This document shows positions 3,001 to 62,150 of a DNA stretch of 64,000 bases, one piece after another. The stretch lies in NCBI GenBank assembly GCA_024362935.1, contig JANCRA010000166.1, positions 434,001 through 498,000 on the forward strand, given 5' to 3'. Numbering within the stretch: the stretch's first letter is position 1; every line of letters begins with the position of its first letter. This DNA comes from Setophaga petechia (Eukaryota; Chordata; Aves; Passeriformes; Parulidae). The notes below the pieces were generated by a model. The model was not told where the DNA came from, searched no databases, and saw nothing but the letters and a program-made list of their open reading frames with translations. The translations under genes were made by a program, and so were the position numbers.

Positions 3001-4399
3001 TTTTATTTGATTTGACTCCAGAATTTGAATCTCCTGAATTAAGGAAATGCATATTTGTCTGCACACAGGCTGAAAAGTTCCTTTCTGTAGTCTTTCTTTT
3101 TCAAGATATCAATTCAGATGAAATCTTGATGTTGGCGGAGGAATTGGTAAAGAGCTGATTCACCTTTTCTGAAAGAAAATAAAATAAGTACATGGCGTCG
3201 CATCTTTTAAATATTTCCAAAAAATGTAACTTTGGTTTTGTTATGGATCTTTGTAATGACTTTAAGTTACTGTTACTTATGTCTATTGATCTGAAATAAT
3301 TAATAAACAAAAAAACCTGCAACGTTGCATGTGACAGATACTTCTTTCAAATACACACATCCAAAGATCAAGCTGTAGATGATGAAAGAAAGAGATGTGA
3401 GAATAGCTTTGGGAGGTGTGACAATTCAGAAATTAGCTGAAATATGGTGTGCAGGAGTTTGGATGCAAAGCAGAAGCAGAGGTGGGAGGCTCAGACCAGG
3501 GCAGCTGACAGCAAAAGGCTGCATTTGCTTTTATGTACTCAGGGAGATGAAAGTTAGAAAGACAACAGTGACAGCCTTAAGAGAGTAAATGGAATGGTGT
3601 GAGAAATGTCTTCCTAACTTTTGTGCCAATACTTTTTTCCTTCACACATTAGATGTTACTGGAAAAAGCCTCAAAAGCTCTTACTCTGTTTTCAGCAAGC
3701 TTTCATTAATTACTCCTTCAGATTTTCCATGATGAGAGTTCTTATTCTCGATTTTGAAGACCCTGTACTTTGTGTCCTCTGGGTTTTTCTTCCCTCAATT
3801 TCCCTGCTCACTCTACTCAGTCCAACTGATGTGTTTTTCATCTTCATCTTTACCTTTTACAGATTTTACCCACCTTTCTGGAGTTCTCTCAAGGGCTAAA
3901 TCCATGGTGTTAGCACCCTCTTTATGTCCTTCCTGAGAAAATGTTTCTCTGGAAACTCTAACCCTGTTCCCTCAGAAAAGTTAATCCATGCCATTTTTCT
4001 CTGTATTTACTCTTCCTCTTTTTGTATTAAGAAGATCCTTATTTAACTAGGTTTAGATCTATGGAGAAAAAATAAAAGCTCCAATATTTTGAATGACCTT
4101 GAGTATGTGTGACTGTAACATCCCTATTTTACAGGAGGGACCCTATTTTGCACCTGAAATGATGAATTAGAACTTCAAAAAGACAGATCATAGAGAGGTA
4201 TACAAATACTAAGGAAAACAGATAATTGCAAGATCAGCCATATGGTTCTGTATGTACAAATCTGGCATGTTATGAGAATTTTTAAAGTTAGATTTTCACT
4301 CTTTCTCCTTTCAAGTAAGTAGAATGCTGCAACCTATAATTTCATATTTCACTACACTGTAGTGAGTCCCAAAACAGAGGGTCATAATAGGGCACCTCT
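1..4399. other. AT-rich non-coding stretch
   Basis: I see no recognisable gene, RNA or repeat here. The sequence is AT-rich with short homopolymer runs. A minus-to-plus comparison gave only short open frames. One frame on the plus strand, roughly 716-856, reads like a soluble acidic peptide (motif TPEFAAIIEEVAEKI) before a TAA stop, and follows a CAG that could be a splice acceptor, but I cannot match it to a family. It is treated as chance unless homology is found. Confidence 0.55.
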
Positions 4400-4915
4400 A
4401 GAATCATGGAATGGCCTTGGTTTGAAGGGATCTTAAAGATTGCGTAGTCCAACCCCCCTGCCATGGGTAGGGACACCTTTCACTAGGCCAGCTTGCTCAG
4501 GGCCCCATCCAAACTGGCCTTGAGCACTTCCAGAGATGGAATATTCTCAACTTCTCTGTTCCAGTGCCTCACCATCCTCACAGTAAAAAATATCTTTGTA
4601 ATATCCGACCCAAACCTCATCTCAGCTTAAAGGCATTATCGCTTGTCCTTATCTTTACAGACCCTTGTAAAAAGTTCCTCTTCAGCTTTCCAACAGGCCC
4701 ACTTTAGATACTGGAATGCTGCTGTAAGGTCTTCCTGAGCCTTGTCTTTTCCAGGCTGAGCAATGCCAATTTTCTCAGCCTGTTTTGATGGGAGATGTGT
4801 TCTGTCCCTCTGATTATCCCTATGGTCCTCGTCTGGACTTTCTCCAACAGGTCAGTGTCCTTCCTATGCTAGGGATAGCAGAGATGGATGTGTAATCCAG
4901 AATGGAGAACATCAC
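4400..4915 (-). mobile_element. CR1 LINE 3' fragment
   Basis: This is the 3' part of a chicken-repeat-1 (CR1) non-LTR retrotransposon on the minus strand. The plus strand starts with the complement of the CR1 3' end (AGAATCATGGAATGG), then the usual CR1 3' region: the CCAACCCCCCTGCCATGGG segment, the CACCTTTCACTAGGCCAG segment and the TTCCAGTGCCTCACCATCC segment. Similarity fades near 4915, so the copy is 5'-truncated, as most CR1 copies are. It is visibly diverged from the younger copies in this window and carries no coding capacity beyond the last part of ORF2 and the 3' UTR. Confidence 0.9.
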
Positions 4916-13866: not shown

Positions 13867-14334
13867 TGTTCTTGTTTAACCCCAGGCATCAACCACACAA
13901 GTGCTCTCTCATTCCCCATGCAGTCTTGGTGTGGGGGAAGGAGAATCAGAAAAACAGGTAAAACCCATCAGTTGAGATAAGAACAGTTTAAGACTTCAAA
14001 TACAGTAAAATATAATAGTACTCCTAATAACAAACATGGTAATAATAGCAACAATAAGAACAAAATTTTATTGAAAAGGAGAAAGAGATATAAATAAAAC
14101 CCAAGAGAAATAAGTTATGCCAAACACAATTGCTCTCCCCCCACTGACTGCTGCCCACTCTATTCCCAAGTAGTGACCTCCCCCTCCTGGCCAATTCTCC
14201 CCAGTTTAGATACTGGGTATGACATTTTATAGTATGGAATGTCCCTGTGGACTGTTCAGGTCAGCTGTCCTGGCCTTGCTGACTCCTGGCTTCATGTGCC
14301 CCATCTCACTGACAGAGCATGGGAAACTGAAAAG
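13867..14334 (-). mobile_element. ERV solo LTR, 3' part (split)
   Basis: This is the 3' part of an avian endogenous-retrovirus long terminal repeat on the minus strand. On the plus strand it opens with TGTTCTTGTTTAACCCC, the complement of the GGGGTTAAAC-type LTR end I recognise from bird genomes. It continues through ACCCATCAGTTGAGATAAG, an A-rich stretch of ATA/AAT units, the CCAGTTTAGATACTGGG promoter-side segment and GTCAGCTGTCCTGGC. It stops at CTGAAAAG (14334), where the NUP42/CR1 insertion begins, and resumes at 15486. No gag, pol or env is attached, so this is a solo LTR. The exact family name is uncertain, with ERVL- or ERVK-like both possible. Confidence 0.85.
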
Positions 14335-14443
14335 ACACAATCATAGAATGGTTTGGGGTGAAAGGGACTTTAAGGGTCATCTTGATCCAGGGGAACCTTC
14401 CACTAGACCAGGTTGCTCAAAACCTCATTCAATCTGGCCTTGG
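14335..14443 (-). mobile_element. CR1 3' end joined to NUP42 retrocopy
   Basis: About 105 bp of the CR1 3' terminus on the minus strand. The plus strand reads TCATAGAATGGTTTGG at the 3' end of the element and then CACTAGACCAGGTTGCTCA and CTCATTCAATCTGGCCTTG. Compared with the other CR1 tails here, an internal segment of roughly 25 bp near 14390 is missing. The fragment lies exactly between the LTR break at 14334 and the A-rich tail of the NUP42 copy, in the same orientation as that copy. The CR1 sequence does not resume on the far side of NUP42, so NUP42 did not simply insert into the middle of a longer CR1. Confidence 0.88.
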
Positions 14444-15485
14444 TAAGATTTTATCTTTTTTTAACCTGAGAGTTTATTACTGCAGAAGACTTAAAGATGA
14501 AAAAAAAAAAAATGAACTGAAACGGAAACATTTTGTTTCATTACTCAACCACAAAAATGTGTAGTTGAGCAATCAGAGAAAATAGAGTATTTCAAAATAA
14601 ACTTAGAAAGTCCTAAACATTCAAAAAGTTCTACTAGTGGTGGCTTAAGAGGAATTCTTCCCATTACAATATTATTTGTTTCAAACAGTTTCAATTCTTC
14701 AGCTGCTCCTTGGTGTAAATAACTTTTTTCATGTATTCTGCTTTGTAAGTGCAGAAGCTGCTGATGTGGTGTTATGTCCAGAGACACTGGCAGTCTATCC
14801 AAATAAAATACTGCTGGACTGTGAGGCAGAAGTTGCTCCTGCTGTATTAAATGTTCCAATGATTGTAAGCACAATGGCGCTTGAAGAGTTCACAGCAGAA
14901 AAATTCCTAGGCAAGGATGTAGCCTCAAAAGCAGGAGGATTACAAGCAGCAGAAATGCTCTCAAAACCATCAGAATTTCCAGATGATGAATTTCCAAATG
15001 CACTGGCAAGACTGGAAATCATTGTAAAGAAGAAACTGGTAGCGCTGCTACTGCTGCTGTCCATGGGAAAGCTTTACAGCCCAAAGCTTGATGTTTGCAG
15101 TCCTCCAGATCCAAAGGAAGGCAAGGGTTGAGTGATTGTGTTCTTTACAATCAGATGGCACAGCTGACAAAAGCAGTCAATGCATTTAAAGCTTTCCACT
15201 GAGGCAGCTGATTTTTCCATTGTCTGTTCTGCTGGACAGAATTTATATAGAGTTCTGAATGTTTGCTCTGCAGTCATAATGCTCCAGATGGAACTGTTCT
15301 GGCAAGAAATCTGAGAAGCCTGAGACATTCAGCTTTTCTTTCATTGGTGATGAAGATGAAACTATCCATTGTCCTGAGGATTCCCAAATTTCCACATCTT
15401 TCATTACATAGTCAAAAAGTCTCTTCATCTTTATAGCCATCGGTAATATTTTGACTGTTTGTAAATGCAGAAAATGTGTTCTGCA
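14444..15485 (-). pseudogene. NUP42 processed pseudogene, 5'-truncated
   Basis: A dead retrocopy of the mRNA for NUP42 (NUPL2), a nuclear-pore FG protein that acts in mRNA export on the cytoplasmic face and binds GLE1 through its C-terminus. On the minus strand the reading order follows the family: KDVEIWESSGQW (WESSGQW at 15366-15386), NVSGFSDF, an FG/serine-rich part with PLPSFGSGG and SSSSSATSF, and the conserved end MGRIPLKPP (14635-14664). The original stop corresponds to 14613-14615. The pieces lie in three different frames with an internal stop, and an extra T breaks the last residues before the stop. The N-terminal CCCH zinc finger is missing. No introns are present. A minus-strand AATAAA lies at 14473-14478, followed by an A-rich tail at 14448-14462. 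The copy is therefore processed, truncated and non-functional. Confidence 0.87.
14473..14478 (-). promoter_or_regulatory. poly(A) signal of the NUP42 retrocopy
   Basis: AATAAA on the minus strand, about 135 nt downstream of the ancestral NUP42 stop and 11 nt before a 7-A run. The spacing is normal for a signal and cleavage site inherited from the source mRNA. Confidence 0.75.
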
Positions 15486-15630
15486 AAAAGTCCTTGACCT
15501 AGGGTAAGAACTACTTACCAACAACCAAAACATCTGTGTGTTATCAATATTATTCTCATACTAAATCCCAAACCACAGCACTGAATAAGCTACCAAGAAA
15601 ACGAACCCTATCAAAGCCAAAAGCAGGACA
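15486..15630 (-). mobile_element. ERV solo LTR, 5' part (split)
   Basis: The LTR interrupted at 14334 resumes here. The plus strand reads AAAAGTCCTTGACCTAGGG, then GTGTGTTATCAATATTATTC and TACTAAATCCCAAACCACAG, and ends in GCAGGACA, so the minus-strand LTR starts TGTCCTGC. Together with 13867-14334 it gives about 613 bp of LTR. AAAAG is present on both sides of the insertion (14330-14334 and 15486-15490), which fits a short target-site duplication. The outer flanks of the LTR (GACTC and CTCTC) match at only three of five positions, so its own duplication has decayed. Confidence 0.8.
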
Positions 15631-18905: not shown

Positions 18906-20781
18906 TCTAGGAGTCACATAAATAGTCCCAGATAATGAACTTTTTTTTCTGACACACCAGCATGCTTTTATAAAAAAAAAAAAAAATTGCCAGTCCAATG
19001 TGAAAATAAAGAGGTCCTAGAGACAAAAGTAGAATTCACAACAGTTGTTTTAATATTTTTTTATTAATTTATACTTTTGTCATTAAATTTTTTATGAACT
19101 AATACAAAAAAATTCTTATTTAATGTTTAAATAGCTGCTATGGGTCTTTTGATAACTTCATGCCTTTGACTTATCCACAGATCAGAGCTTAGTGGTATGA
19201 CAGGTGTCATGAGCAACCATAACTGTGTGTTTTGCTCCAGAGAGTTGTTAACTAATGACAAAGAAATAACAGCACGATTTCAGTACATATTCTGCGCAAA
19301 CTTGGGAATGTATTTTGTGAGTTAGCTGCAAAGAATTTATTATGCTTGGGAAGCTCTATTATTTAAAATGTTCTCTGCAGTGGGTACAAACCTGCAGGAG
19401 AAATGGGTATATGGATATGATACAAATATTGTGTATAAAATTCACTTCTGTCTAGAAACCTAATGAGAAGCCTAAATACCACTTCTTATGTGATGTTACA
19501 GAGAACTTGAACTTTGTGTTTACTATGTGCTTGCAATTTTAAATTTAGTAAAATTAATATACCTACTGCATGCTATATCACAGGAATGTTAAAATGCTGG
19601 GAATTTTCTTCTGCTGATGAAGAAGAATCACTGTCTGAATGTATGCTTATACCCATATAGTTCAGCCATTTGACTTAACAATTTTTTCATAGACAACATT
19701 GATTAAATTTGGAATTTTACTTCCTTTTCTACCTTGTGCTGTTCTCAGATGATGATGGCTGATTTGGCAGGGGCTGACAGTGCATGTGTTTTATTTCAAA
19801 TATACCCAAATAGAACCATAATTTGGTTAAAGAGGGAACTGTCACAAATATTTGTTTGACCTGCTATTTCTTTATACAGGACTCCACAAAATGAGATGCT
19901 AATTAATGGATTTAATTTTTCATATTGCATTGCTTTCCTGTATATTTTTGTCCACTTGTGTCAGCTAGAATCTCTGCAAGGCAGGGACCAGTAAGTTTTT
20001 TAGGCTGCGCACATCTTGAGATTTTTATCTGTGACTTTATTTTTGTAGCACTCAAAATAATAAGTATAATTTATAGTACTTACCTGTTTTGCAATGTTGA
20101 GTTATTCCATCAGATCTCAATGTGAAAGTTGCTTCAAAAGGAAGCTGCTGGTTATGAAGACAGAAAGTTGTCAACTTGTGAAGTGGTTTGACTCCTGAGG
20201 AGAACATTCCTGTTTAAAAAATACTGACATCCTTTTGTAGGATTTTTTGATCTTACATTGAAGATTTTAAATTGGCTTTTGAACCCATGTTTGGCATTTA
20301 TAGAGCTGAATTAATTGTAAGCTTTAGTTTTTCTTTTTCTTGAAAGATTATTCAGTTCCATTTTCTCCTTACAAAAATGCCATCGGGGGCTCCCATGAGC
20401 CCACAAGAGAAAATGAAAGCTTTCAGTTAATAAAATGCATTTACCTGTGTGTGTAAGCTGTGACTGACTGAGCTTCCCCCAGCACTGCTGTTATTATATG
20501 CCATACATCTCCCACAGATATACAAGGCTCAAGGTCAGTGGGGAACAAAAATTTTGTAGAAATGCTGATGTGCAAGAGTCCTTCATCTTCTGAAGCTCTT
20601 GTGCCTGAAGTGTGAAATGGCCATGAGGAAATTTGCTAAAATAACTACTGTTTGCCTGTACTGCTGCTTCTCCCAGAATGACACTTGCAGCTGCAAAGGG
20701 TTTCTGTGAACAGGTGCAAAATGGTTGTGGTTCAGCCCACTGAGATTTTATAGTAGAGGGAAGTAGAGAGAGGAAGGGAGG
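18906..20781. other. AT-rich non-coding stretch
   Basis: No gene is seen. There is a run of about 15 A at 18972-18986 and strongly AT-rich sequence around 19040-19130. Confidence 0.5.
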
Positions 20782-21172
20782 AGAATCATAGAATGGCTTG
20801 GTTTGAAGGGGCCTTGAAAACCACCTCATTCCAACTCCCCTGCCATGGGCAGGGACACCTTTCACTAGACCAGGTTTCTCAGAGTCCCATCCAACCTGAC
20901 CTTGAACACTTCCAAGGATGGGGCATCCACATCTTCTCTGGGCCACCTGTTCCAGTGCCTCACTACCCTCTCCATGAAGAATTTCTTCCTAACGTCTAAT
21001 TTTAACCTGCCCTCTTTCAGTTTAAACCCATTCCCCATTGCCCTATCACTAAAGGGCCTACTGAAATGTTTTTCTTATAAGCCCCTTAAGTTCTGAAAGT
21101 TTTCTCTGGAGTCTTCTCTTGCTTCCACTGAACAACCCCAGTTCTGCTAGCCTTTCCTCATAGCAGAGATTC
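20782..21172 (-). mobile_element. CR1 LINE 3' fragment
   Basis: A minus-strand CR1 3' region. The plus strand starts AGAATCATAGAATGGCTTGG and contains CCCCTGCCATGGGCAGGGAC, TTTCACTAGACCAGG, CCTGTTCCAGTGCCTCACTA and AACAACCCCAGTTCTGCTAG. It is better preserved than the copy at 4400, so it is probably younger. It is 5'-truncated near 21172. Confidence 0.93.
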
Positions 21173-33859: not shown

Positions 33860-34008
33860 TCATAGAATCATGGAATGGTTTGGTTTTGAAGGGACCTTAA
33901 AGATGACCCAGTTCCAACCCCCCTGCTGCAGGCAGGGACACCTTCCATTAGACCAGGTTGCTAAAAGCCCCATCCAACCTGGCCTTGAACACTTCTACGC
34001 TTGGTGCA
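33860..34008 (-). mobile_element. CR1 LINE 3' end, short
   Basis: About 150 bp of a CR1 3' end on the minus strand. The plus strand reads TCATAGAATCATGGAATGG, then CAACCCCCCTGCTGCAGGCA, CATTAGACCAGGTTGCT and CCCATCCAACCTGGCCTTGA. It breaks off soon after, so it is heavily 5'-truncated. Confidence 0.92.
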
Positions 34009-59164: not shown

Positions 59165-59202
59165 TTAAAGGCAGACCTCATTGAGAGTGCTTTAAACTAG
59201 GT

Positions 59203-60290
59203 TTGAAGGGGGAAGGGCAAGCAGCAGAGCTACCTGGAAGCAGGCCCAAGGGTTGCAAGGCTGAGTTAGGGGTGAAGTCAGTAGCCCAGCTGAGGTGTGT
59301 GCATACCAACACACACACCTTGGGCAACAAAGAAGAAGAGCTGGAGGCCATGGTGCCACTGCAGAGCTATGATGTAGCTGCCATCACGGAAACATGGTGG
59401 GACGACTCACTTAGCTGGAGTACTGCGCTGGATGGATACAAGCTCCTCAGAAGAGACAGGAAAGGAAGAAGAGGAGGAGGGGTGGCCCTTTATGTTAAGC
59501 AGACTTTCAATGCCATAGAAATTGAAACTAAGGAAGATGGAGTTGAATGTCTACGGGTAAGAATTAAGGGGAAGGCCAACAAGGCTGACACCATACTGGG
59601 AGTCTGTTATTGTCCACCCAACCAGGAAGAGACTTATTCTATAAGCAGCTAGGTAATGTTTCAAGATCATCAGCCCTTGTTCTTGTGGATGACTTCAACC
59701 TACCGTACATCCGCTGGGAACTTAATACAGCAGTAAAGAGGCAGTCCAGGAAATTCTTAGAATGTATGGAGGACAACTTTTTGTCACAGCTGGTGGGGGA
59801 ACCCACCAGGGGAGGGACTATGTTAGATCTGCTGTTTGCAAATAGAGATGGGCTGGTGGGAGATGTGGTGGTTGGAGGTTGCTTGGGGCAGAGTGATCAT
59901 GAAATAATAGAGTTCTCAATATTTGGTGAAGTCAGGAGGAGCACCAACAAGACTCTTACATTGGACTTCTGGAAGGCAATTGGCCTGTTTAGGAGACTTA
60001 TTCAGAGCATCCCTTGGGAAACAGCTCTTAAAAACAAAGGAGTTCAGGAAAGGTGGGCATGTCTCAAAACAGAAATCTTGAGGGCACAGGAACAGACTGT
60101 CCCTGTGTGCCGAAAGATCAGTCAAGGGGGTAAACATCCAGCCTGGCTGGGCAAGGAGGTTTTGGAGGAACTTAGGAATAAAAAGAGGATGTACCAGTGT
60201 TGCAAGGAGGGTCAGATCTCTAAGGAAGTATTCAAGAAGGCTACTGGAGCATGCAGGAAAAAAATTAGGGGGGGCCGAAGCTCATTTTGA
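59203..60290 (+). pseudogene. CR1 ORF2 endonuclease part, broken
   Basis: The apurinic-like endonuclease domain that nicks target DNA for target-primed reverse transcription. The motif ITETWWDD is at about 59381, GGGVALYVK follows, GVCYCPPNQ precedes a frameshift near 59625 caused by a short deletion, and DDFNLP, EPTRGGTMLDLL and the catalytic SDH (59892-59900) follow in the next frame. The second frame then runs through a lysine-rich linker and fails at a G-run near 60268, where one extra base leads to a stop. The order and spacing of motifs match CR1 ORF2. Confidence 0.9.
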
Positions 60291-60297
60291 ACTTGGA

Positions 60298-61990
60298 ATG
60301 GCGACTTCTGTAAAGGATAATAAAAAATGTTTTTACAAATACATTAATGCTAGAAGGAAGGGTAAGAGCAGCCTTTGTTCTTTATTGGACAAGGGAGGGA
60401 ACTTAGTATCTGCAGATGAGGAGAAGGCAGAAGTGCTTAATGCCTACTTTGCCTCGGTTTTTAATGGGAAGATGACTTGCCCTCAAGACACCTGCCCGCC
60501 TGGACTGGTTGATGGTGACAGGGAGCAGAATGGTCCCCCCATTATCCAAGAGGAGGCAGTCAAAGAACTACTGAAATGCTTGGATGTTCATAAATCTATG
60601 GGACCAGACAGGATCCACCCCAAAGTAATGAGAGCTGGCAAATGAGCTTGCAAAGCCACTCTCCATCATTTACCAACAGTCCTGGATCACTGGTGAGGCT
60701 CCGGATGACTGGAAGCTGGCCAATGTGATACTCGTTCACAAAAAGGGTGCAAAGGAGGATCCTGGTAATTACAGACCAGTCAGCCTGACCTCAGTACCTG
60801 GCAAAATAATGGAACAGTTTATATTAAGTGCCATCACATAGAATTTACAGGATGGCCAGGGTATCAGACCCAGCCAGCATGGGTTTAGGAGGGGTAGGTC
60901 ATGTTTAACCAACCTGGTCACCTTTTATGACCAGGTAACCCACCTAGTGGATGCAGGGAAGGCTGTTGATGTTGTTTACTTGGATTTCAGCAAGGCCTTT
61001 GACACTGTCTCCCACAGCACACTCCTAGACAAGCTGGCAGCCCGTGGCTTGGACAGGAGCACTCTGTGCTGGGTTAGGAACTGGCTGCACGGCCGGGCCC
61101 AGAGAGCGATGGTGAATGGTGCTGCATCCAGCTGGCGGCCAGCCACCAGTGGTGTCCCTCAGGGGTCTGTGCTGGGGCCAGTTCTATTTAATATTTTTAT
61201 TGATGACATGGATGAGGGTTTAGAGTCTTTCAATAGCAAATTTGCAGATGACACTAAGATGGGAGCGTGTGTTGATCTGTTAGAGGGACGGAGGGCTTTG
61301 CAGAGGGACTTGGAGCGATTGGATGGATGGGCAGAATCTAATGGGATGAAGTTCAATAAGTCCAAATGCTGAATCCTGCACTCTGGCCTCAATAACCCCC
61401 TGCAACGTTATAGACTGGGGACGGTGTGGCTGGACAGTGCTCAGGAGGAAAGGGACCTGGGGGTGCTGGTTGACAGTCTGCTGAACATGAGCCAGCAGTG
61501 TGCCCAGGTGGCCAAGAAGGCCAATGGCATCCTGGCTAGTGTCAGGAATAGTGTGGCCAGCAGGAGCAGGGAGGTCATTCTTCCCCTGTACTCGACACTG
61601 GTGATGCCACACCTTGAGTATTGCGTCCAGTTCTGGGCCCCTCAGTTTAGGAGGGACGTTGAGATGCTTGAGCGTGTCCAAACGAGAGCAACGAGGCTGG
61701 TGAGGGGCTTGGAGCACAAGCTGTATGAAGAACGACTGAGGGAGCTGGGGTTGTTCAGCCTGGAGAAAAGGAGACTCAGAGGTGACCTTATCACTCTCTT
61801 CACCTTCCTGAAGGGTGGCTGTGGTGAGCTGTGGGTCCGTCTCTTTCTCTGGGCAACAACAGACAGAACAAGAGGACACAGTCTCAAGCTGCGCCAAGGG
61901 AGATACAAGCTAGAATTAAGGAGGAAGTTTTTCATAGAAAGAGTGGTCAAATACTGGAATCATTTACCCAGGGAGGTGGTGGGTAAATGA
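60298..61990 (+). pseudogene. CR1 ORF2 reverse transcriptase, broken
   Basis: The reverse-transcriptase and C-terminal parts of ORF2. Motifs in order: NAYFASVFN, MGPDRIHPKVM, a frameshift near 60630, LSIIYQQSW, GNYRPVSLTSVPGK, a TAG stop at 60839, [35 protein letters not shown], and the catalytic FADD at 61241-61252. A TGA at 61371 interrupts KSKC-ILHSG. The C-terminal part continues open to 61990 ([43 protein letters not shown]) and ends early at VVGK because of the inverted repeat described separately. Key active-site residues are still present, so decay is moderate. Confidence 0.92.
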
Positions 61991-61999
61991 TTCCAGTAT
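61951..61999. repeat. 20-bp perfect inverted repeat in CR1
   Basis: The left arm ATACTGGAATCATTTACCCA (61951-61970) is followed by a 9-nt spacer and its exact complement at 61980-61999. The left arm is ordinary CR1 ORF2 sequence. The right arm replaces the usual CR1 sequence after GGGAGGTGGTGG and creates the premature stop. Confidence 0.92.
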
Positions 62000-62150
62000 A
62001 TGGGAAGTTGAATTAAGCCATCCCTTGATGTATTTAAAAAAAGACTGGAAGTGGCACTTGGTGCCATGATCTAGTTGAGGTGTTAGAACACAGGTTGGAC
62101 TTGATGATCTTAAAGGTCTCTTCCAACCTAGAAATTCTGTGATTCTGCGA

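Follow-up and report, generated by a model that had tools for sequence, protein, structure and literature searches.

Template switching by LINEs is an established process, and the small number of retrocopies in birds is usually explained by the requirement of CR1 for its own 3' end. In chimeras of the U6-L1 type and of the WEIRD/MGL type from Magnaporthe, a copy of a cellular RNA is fused to the 3' part of a LINE, with direct repeats outside (PMC2104539, PMC4476161), and the U6 copies in the L2 and RTE clades are described as being solely template-switch chimeras (PMC4476161). The locus analysed here in Setophaga petechia has the same architecture, but the LINE is CR1, the host is a bird, and the partner is a spliced mRNA, that of NUP42, which is joined by its 3' end. 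As described for chimeras of human L1 with mRNAs, the mRNA part is in sense orientation and lies 5' of the LINE, and a target-site duplication (TSD) surrounds both (PMC13174262). Fifteen of the 17 human cases derive from transcript starts, six end at splice donors, and most contain near full-length L1 (PMC13174262), whereas in the NUP42 locus a short CR1 tail follows the 3' end of an mRNA.

Two bird systems come close. The passerine PittSINE also carries a CR1-derived tail, for which template switching in CR1-driven reverse transcription was proposed, but it is an amplified SINE family with a tRNA head (PMC5729268), whereas NUP42/CR1 is a single-copy mRNA chimera. A U6 copy of the turkey likewise represents a cellular RNA adjoining CR1-like sequence in a bird, and was left undecided by an assembly gap (PMC4476161), whereas both junctions are read in NUP42/CR1. 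With ordinary processed pseudogenes, the locus shares the lack of introns, the truncated 5' end, the broken frame and an A-rich 3' end, but it terminates in a LINE 3' terminus instead of poly(A). CR1 is described as generally unable to generate retrocopies (PMC8232201, citing Suh 2015), and counts of 78 retrocopies in chicken versus 4738 in human were given (PMC3136929). Retrocopies do exist in birds, because a retrotransposed NARF copy was reported on the W chromosome of crow (PMC7599627). A resolved CR1-mRNA chimera was not found in the literature searched; most subscription papers lay outside this search, and one may be in print. LINE template-switch chimeras were already known, and the NUP42 locus would be a CR1-plus-mRNA variant of them in a bird.

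Structure of the insert and its NUP42 part

The window, i.e., the whole stretch of 64,000 nucleotides that was analysed, corresponds to positions 434001-498000 of contig C166. It contains a minus-strand LTR split by 1151 bases (14335-15485), with AAAAG on the plus strand at both edges of the insert (14330-14334 and 15486-15490). The first-pass annotation had placed this interruption between 14334 and 15486 with flanking AAAAG, which is exact to the base. The features are listed below in minus-strand order.

15486-15630, minus strand: 5' part of the LTR, a solo LTR, found in 25 of 29 other copies; end set by eye (TG...CA)
15486-15490, minus strand: TSD copy 1, CTTTT (AAAAG on the plus strand), 5 bp, inside the GACTTTT common to LTR and NUP42 mRNA; 5-nt flank overlap in 22 of 25 copies
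About 14613-15485, minus strand: coding part of NUP42, 5'-truncated, exons 2-7, intron-less, frame broken; from the alignment to the spliced parent cDNA and the protein search
14463-14612, minus strand: NUP42 3'UTR with AATAAA at 14473-14478; from the alignment to the parent 3'UTR
14443-14462, minus strand: A-rich stretch, putative decayed poly(A) tail; 13 A in the 21 nt of 14443-14463
14335-14442, minus strand: CR1 3' end, 108 bp, reaching the CR1 terminus; from matches to other CR1 copies and the CR1 profile
14330-14334, minus strand: TSD copy 2, CTTTT; from the sequence and the comparison of LTR copies
13867-14334, minus strand: 3' part of the LTR, with 43 genome match rows including itself; end set by eye

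The alignments agree with the minus-strand order given in that annotation, which runs from a 5'-truncated NUP42 copy to the CR1 3' terminus, with a CR1 part of 108 bp versus the claimed 105 bp or so. It had also named a poly(A) signal and an A-rich tail; the signal is present as AATAAA, but in place of a clean tail there is an A-rich stretch, probably decayed poly(A). Rfam models at gathering scores gave no match anywhere in the window.

Read-through translation of the copy yielded 183 protein matches, and each named one among the 120 listed is an avian NUP42/NUPL2. A search of solved structures added three matches, all to NUP42, with E values of 0.23-0.27 that are weak alone. The parent NUP42 of the host is located on a different contig (C38), of which 30 kb around the gene were examined, and the encoded protein is closest to that of Haemorhous mexicanus (P0119, 92%) among 125 proteins compared. 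Aligned to the parent cDNA, consisting of exons 2-7 spliced at GT-AG, the insert agrees at 71% over 998 columns, the final few dozen of which lie past AATAAA and are not true homology. In this alignment, the copy starts within exon 2, crosses five GT-AG exon junctions of the parent with zero introns, and tracks the parent 3'UTR up to an AATAAA common to both. The comparison with the host mRNA, with its five junctions free of introns, bears out the processed copy proposed beforehand. In each of the three frames, the copy is interrupted by stop codons and frame shifts; it is a processed pseudogene and dead.

The NUP42 segment is in sense relative to CR1 and ends after AATAAA, where CR1 begins. 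A-richness starts ten bases past AATAAA: 13 of 21 nt are A, which has a probability of about 0.005 at an A content of 32%. This stretch probably represents a decayed poly(A) tail, although eight of its 21 bases are not A and it might partly be 3'UTR.

Some further observations concern NUP42 itself. About 38 codons (~114 nt) of the last exon are missing from the retrocopy at about 14930-14905 of the window (minus strand); the same loss occurs in the related sequence P0041, and an overlapping stretch is absent from a NUP42 isoform of Podargus (P0121). A second partial NUP42 with introns (L009:54-2634) lies directly upstream of the parent gene on contig C38 and indicates a tandem duplication. An apparent intron of this tandem copy contains 39 nt (L009:543-581) which are 87% identical to the 3'UTR end of the retrocopy and include AGTAATAAA. 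Athene noctua has two NUP42-like protein models (P0044, 422 aa; P0088, 311 aa), so the little owl perhaps carries a second NUP42 copy.

Target site, CR1 tail and age

To compare the insertion site with uninterrupted LTRs, we searched the genome (1.22 Gb in 687 contigs) with the 3' part of the LTR, which gave 43 match rows including the query, and examined 29 other copies, placing the flanks by projecting BLAST ends. Both window flanks were placeable in 25 of these, and the upstream part of the LTR was not found in the other four. None of the 25 copies contains an insert. The overlap of the flanks is exactly 5 nt in 22 copies and 4, 6 and 11 nt in the remaining three; the exact spelling CTTTT occurs in 14 of the 29. 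In the uninterrupted LTR, the five bases occur a single time, but they flank the insert of the window on each side and therefore represent a 5-bp TSD around NUP42 plus CR1. This duplication brackets the two parts jointly and therefore indicates one insertion. The single insertion of a compound unit, as the first-pass annotation had it, is thus favoured by a TSD around both parts and by LTR copies that are whole elsewhere.

Short patterns built from the joined window flanks have five T where the LTR paralogs mostly have four, and they gave 0 hits in viral contigs and in prokaryote genomes, collections that do not include birds. The parent mRNA reads GACTTTTCACAG and typical LTR copies read GGACTTTTCAG. 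Because both contain GACTTTT, the CTTTT next to NUP42 can equally be assigned to the mRNA and could derive from it instead of from a duplicated target. The chance of such a 7-nt microhomology at the 5' junction is about 5e-4 under a simple model with the present-day parent. For human L1, 5'-truncated insertions are reported to show microhomology at the 5' end more often than full-length ones, and short duplications to be linked with 5'-truncated L1 but not with retrocopies of mRNAs generated in trans (PMC2912911). By analogy, the short TSD and the microhomology would fit an insertion of the LINE type rather than that of an ordinary retrocopy.

The tail of the insert matches three other CR1 copies inside the window as well as 38 CR1 rows in the genome. 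Because 32 of these 38 begin at insert base 1043-1047, the CR1 part is taken to start there. A CR1 profile matches the tail too, the tail itself being among the 10 sequences of this profile. The CR1 3' end claimed beforehand is therefore confirmed by the matches in both the window and the genome. Of the 8-bp repeat at the CR1 end, described as 5'-ATTCTRTG-3' (PMC8665684), the insert contains one clear unit, ATTCTATG, plus a second, diverged one. The predicted fold of the tail is no better than those of shuffled sequences (z +0.52), and part of the hairpin region is missing. Because this region is likewise short in several other CR1 copies, it is possible that the hairpin was lost after insertion.

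Further CR1 sequences lie elsewhere in the window. Three 3' ends are on the minus strand, like the insert (4399-4532, 20780-20913 and 33860-33996). On the plus strand, a CR1-like LINE remnant at 59185-62149 has successive open reading frames resembling, by eye, endonuclease and reverse transcriptase, and contains a match to the CR1 3'-end profile at 62042-62149.

In a tree of 49 rows, the window copy forms one clade (100/100) with sequences from blue jay (P0063) and great tit (P0122) and with P0041, and is grouped with the great tit at 99/92. P0041 starts in the LTR and continues across the LTR/NUP42 junction (MLSLLLSSSYPRSRTFCRT vs. MFWLLVSSSYPRSRTFCRT in the window), and the VKDF of the blue jay protein is encoded by LTR bases. 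Two of the three protein models of these relatives thus span the LTR/NUP42 junction (that of the great tit does not), and none spans the CR1 junction. Because P0063 and P0041 carry the LTR/NUP42 junction and the great tit sequence belongs to the same clade, the insertion is, judged from these sequences, older than the divergence between jays on one side and tits and finches on the other. The free tree placed the four pseudogene rows outside the 16 passerine NUP42 rows, and a tree uniting pseudogene and passerine NUP42 rows scored higher (lnL +17.24, p-AU 0.954). We take this placement as no more than compatible with an old insertion.

Origin of the chimera

Most probably, the locus results from one CR1-driven insertion of a template-switched CR1/NUP42 chimeric cDNA into the LTR. 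Within this best explanation, the involvement of the CR1 enzyme, the sequence of events, the template jump and its arrival on poly(A) are inferred. The CR1 enzyme would nick the LTR and prime the first strand on the 3' end of a CR1 RNA. After about 108 nt, it would jump, with polarity kept, onto a spliced NUP42 mRNA at its poly(A) 3' end and then copy about 1 kb of this mRNA. The 5' end would be joined at the GACTTTT common to mRNA and target, giving the 5-bp CTTTT duplication, and the event would be placed in an ancestor of jays, tits and finches.

Alternatively, the RNA may have been chimeric before CR1 inserted it, either by read-through of a NUP42 allele with a downstream CR1 or by trans-splicing. 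Spliced chimeric RNAs of mRNA and L1 are described in human (PMC13174262), and sense CR1-like fragments occur at the parent locus, with E 2.8e-6 in intron 1 and E 1.7e-6 at 14.4 kb downstream of AATAAA, further CR1-profile matches around the gene being weaker. However, the CR1 part of the insert remained unmatched in a BLAST search against the 30 kb around the parent, the 2.4 kb that follow the parent AATAAA lacked any CR1-profile match with E <= 10, and the junction lies in the A-rich stretch past AATAAA with no splice site. A contiguous genomic source of a chimeric RNA was thus not detected in these 30 kb around the host parent. Read-through of the present-day parent is therefore unsupported, CR1 being undetected within 2.4 kb behind its 3' end; an ancestral allele since lost may have been the source, but we regard a pre-fused RNA as unlikely overall.

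Somewhat less probable again are two separate insertions, with either CR1 arriving first and NUP42 at its 5' edge, or NUP42 first and CR1 at its 3' edge. CR1 is abundant in the host genome, where one 16-mer has 1016 exact copies, and the CR1 junction lies outside the protein models of the relatives. However, the second insertion must have hit the exact boundary without leaving a footprint, and a single TSD spans both parts.

We consider it very improbable that repair of the insertion break joined a NUP42 cDNA to the 5' end of CR1 without a template jump. PMC2912911 discusses repair-type joining at the 5' ends of LINEs, but such capture predicts a random strand and segment, whereas the NUP42 segment has sense orientation and is tied to the 3' end of its mRNA. 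A retrovirus-like element switching between LTR RNA and NUP42 mRNA without CR1 can practically be dismissed: PMC8232201 cites LTR-mediated retroposition in animals (after Tan 2016) and microhomology is present at the 5' junction, but the flanks are contiguous in empty copies, their 5-nt overlap indicates insertion into existing DNA, and the CR1 tail is left unexplained.

Search for further chimeras and the CR1 3'-end rule

A genome search for the pattern of AATAAA, A7 and a nearby CR1 motif gave one match, the NUP42/CR1 locus itself, and none with reversed-pattern controls; the 16-base CR1 motif of this pattern alone occurs 1016 times (523 + 493). Exact patterns at two other CR1 positions and an exact A9 pattern without AATAAA, which cannot match the NUP42 locus and each cover part of the CR1 copies, gave no genome matches. 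The rarity therefore holds for the exact AATAAA-A7-CR1 form only. Because a second CR1-mRNA chimera was not found with these patterns, the locus is without a replicate. A survey for retrocopies with Pfam profiles yielded 55 matches to PF00118, mostly exon-sized, while three extend over 301, 197 and 118 profile positions, and 32 matches to PF00160, one of them almost full-length in a single frame.

With somewhat less confidence than for the template-switched insertion at this locus, we propose that CR1 is able to copy spliced, polyadenylated mRNAs if its enzyme has already started on a CR1 3' end and then switches to the mRNA tail. If this holds, processed pseudogenes of birds could arise as CR1-tailed chimeras, possibly overlooked by retrocopy scans since their 3' end reads as a repeat. 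The NUP42/CR1 locus would obey the CR1 3'-end rule and yet let an mRNA pass, the required 3' end being contributed by template switching. It provides a countable signature for bird genomes, namely a gene 3'UTR, AATAAA, an A-rich stretch and a CR1 3' end with a short duplication around all of them, and counting this signature would make the origin of the rare avian retrocopies directly testable.
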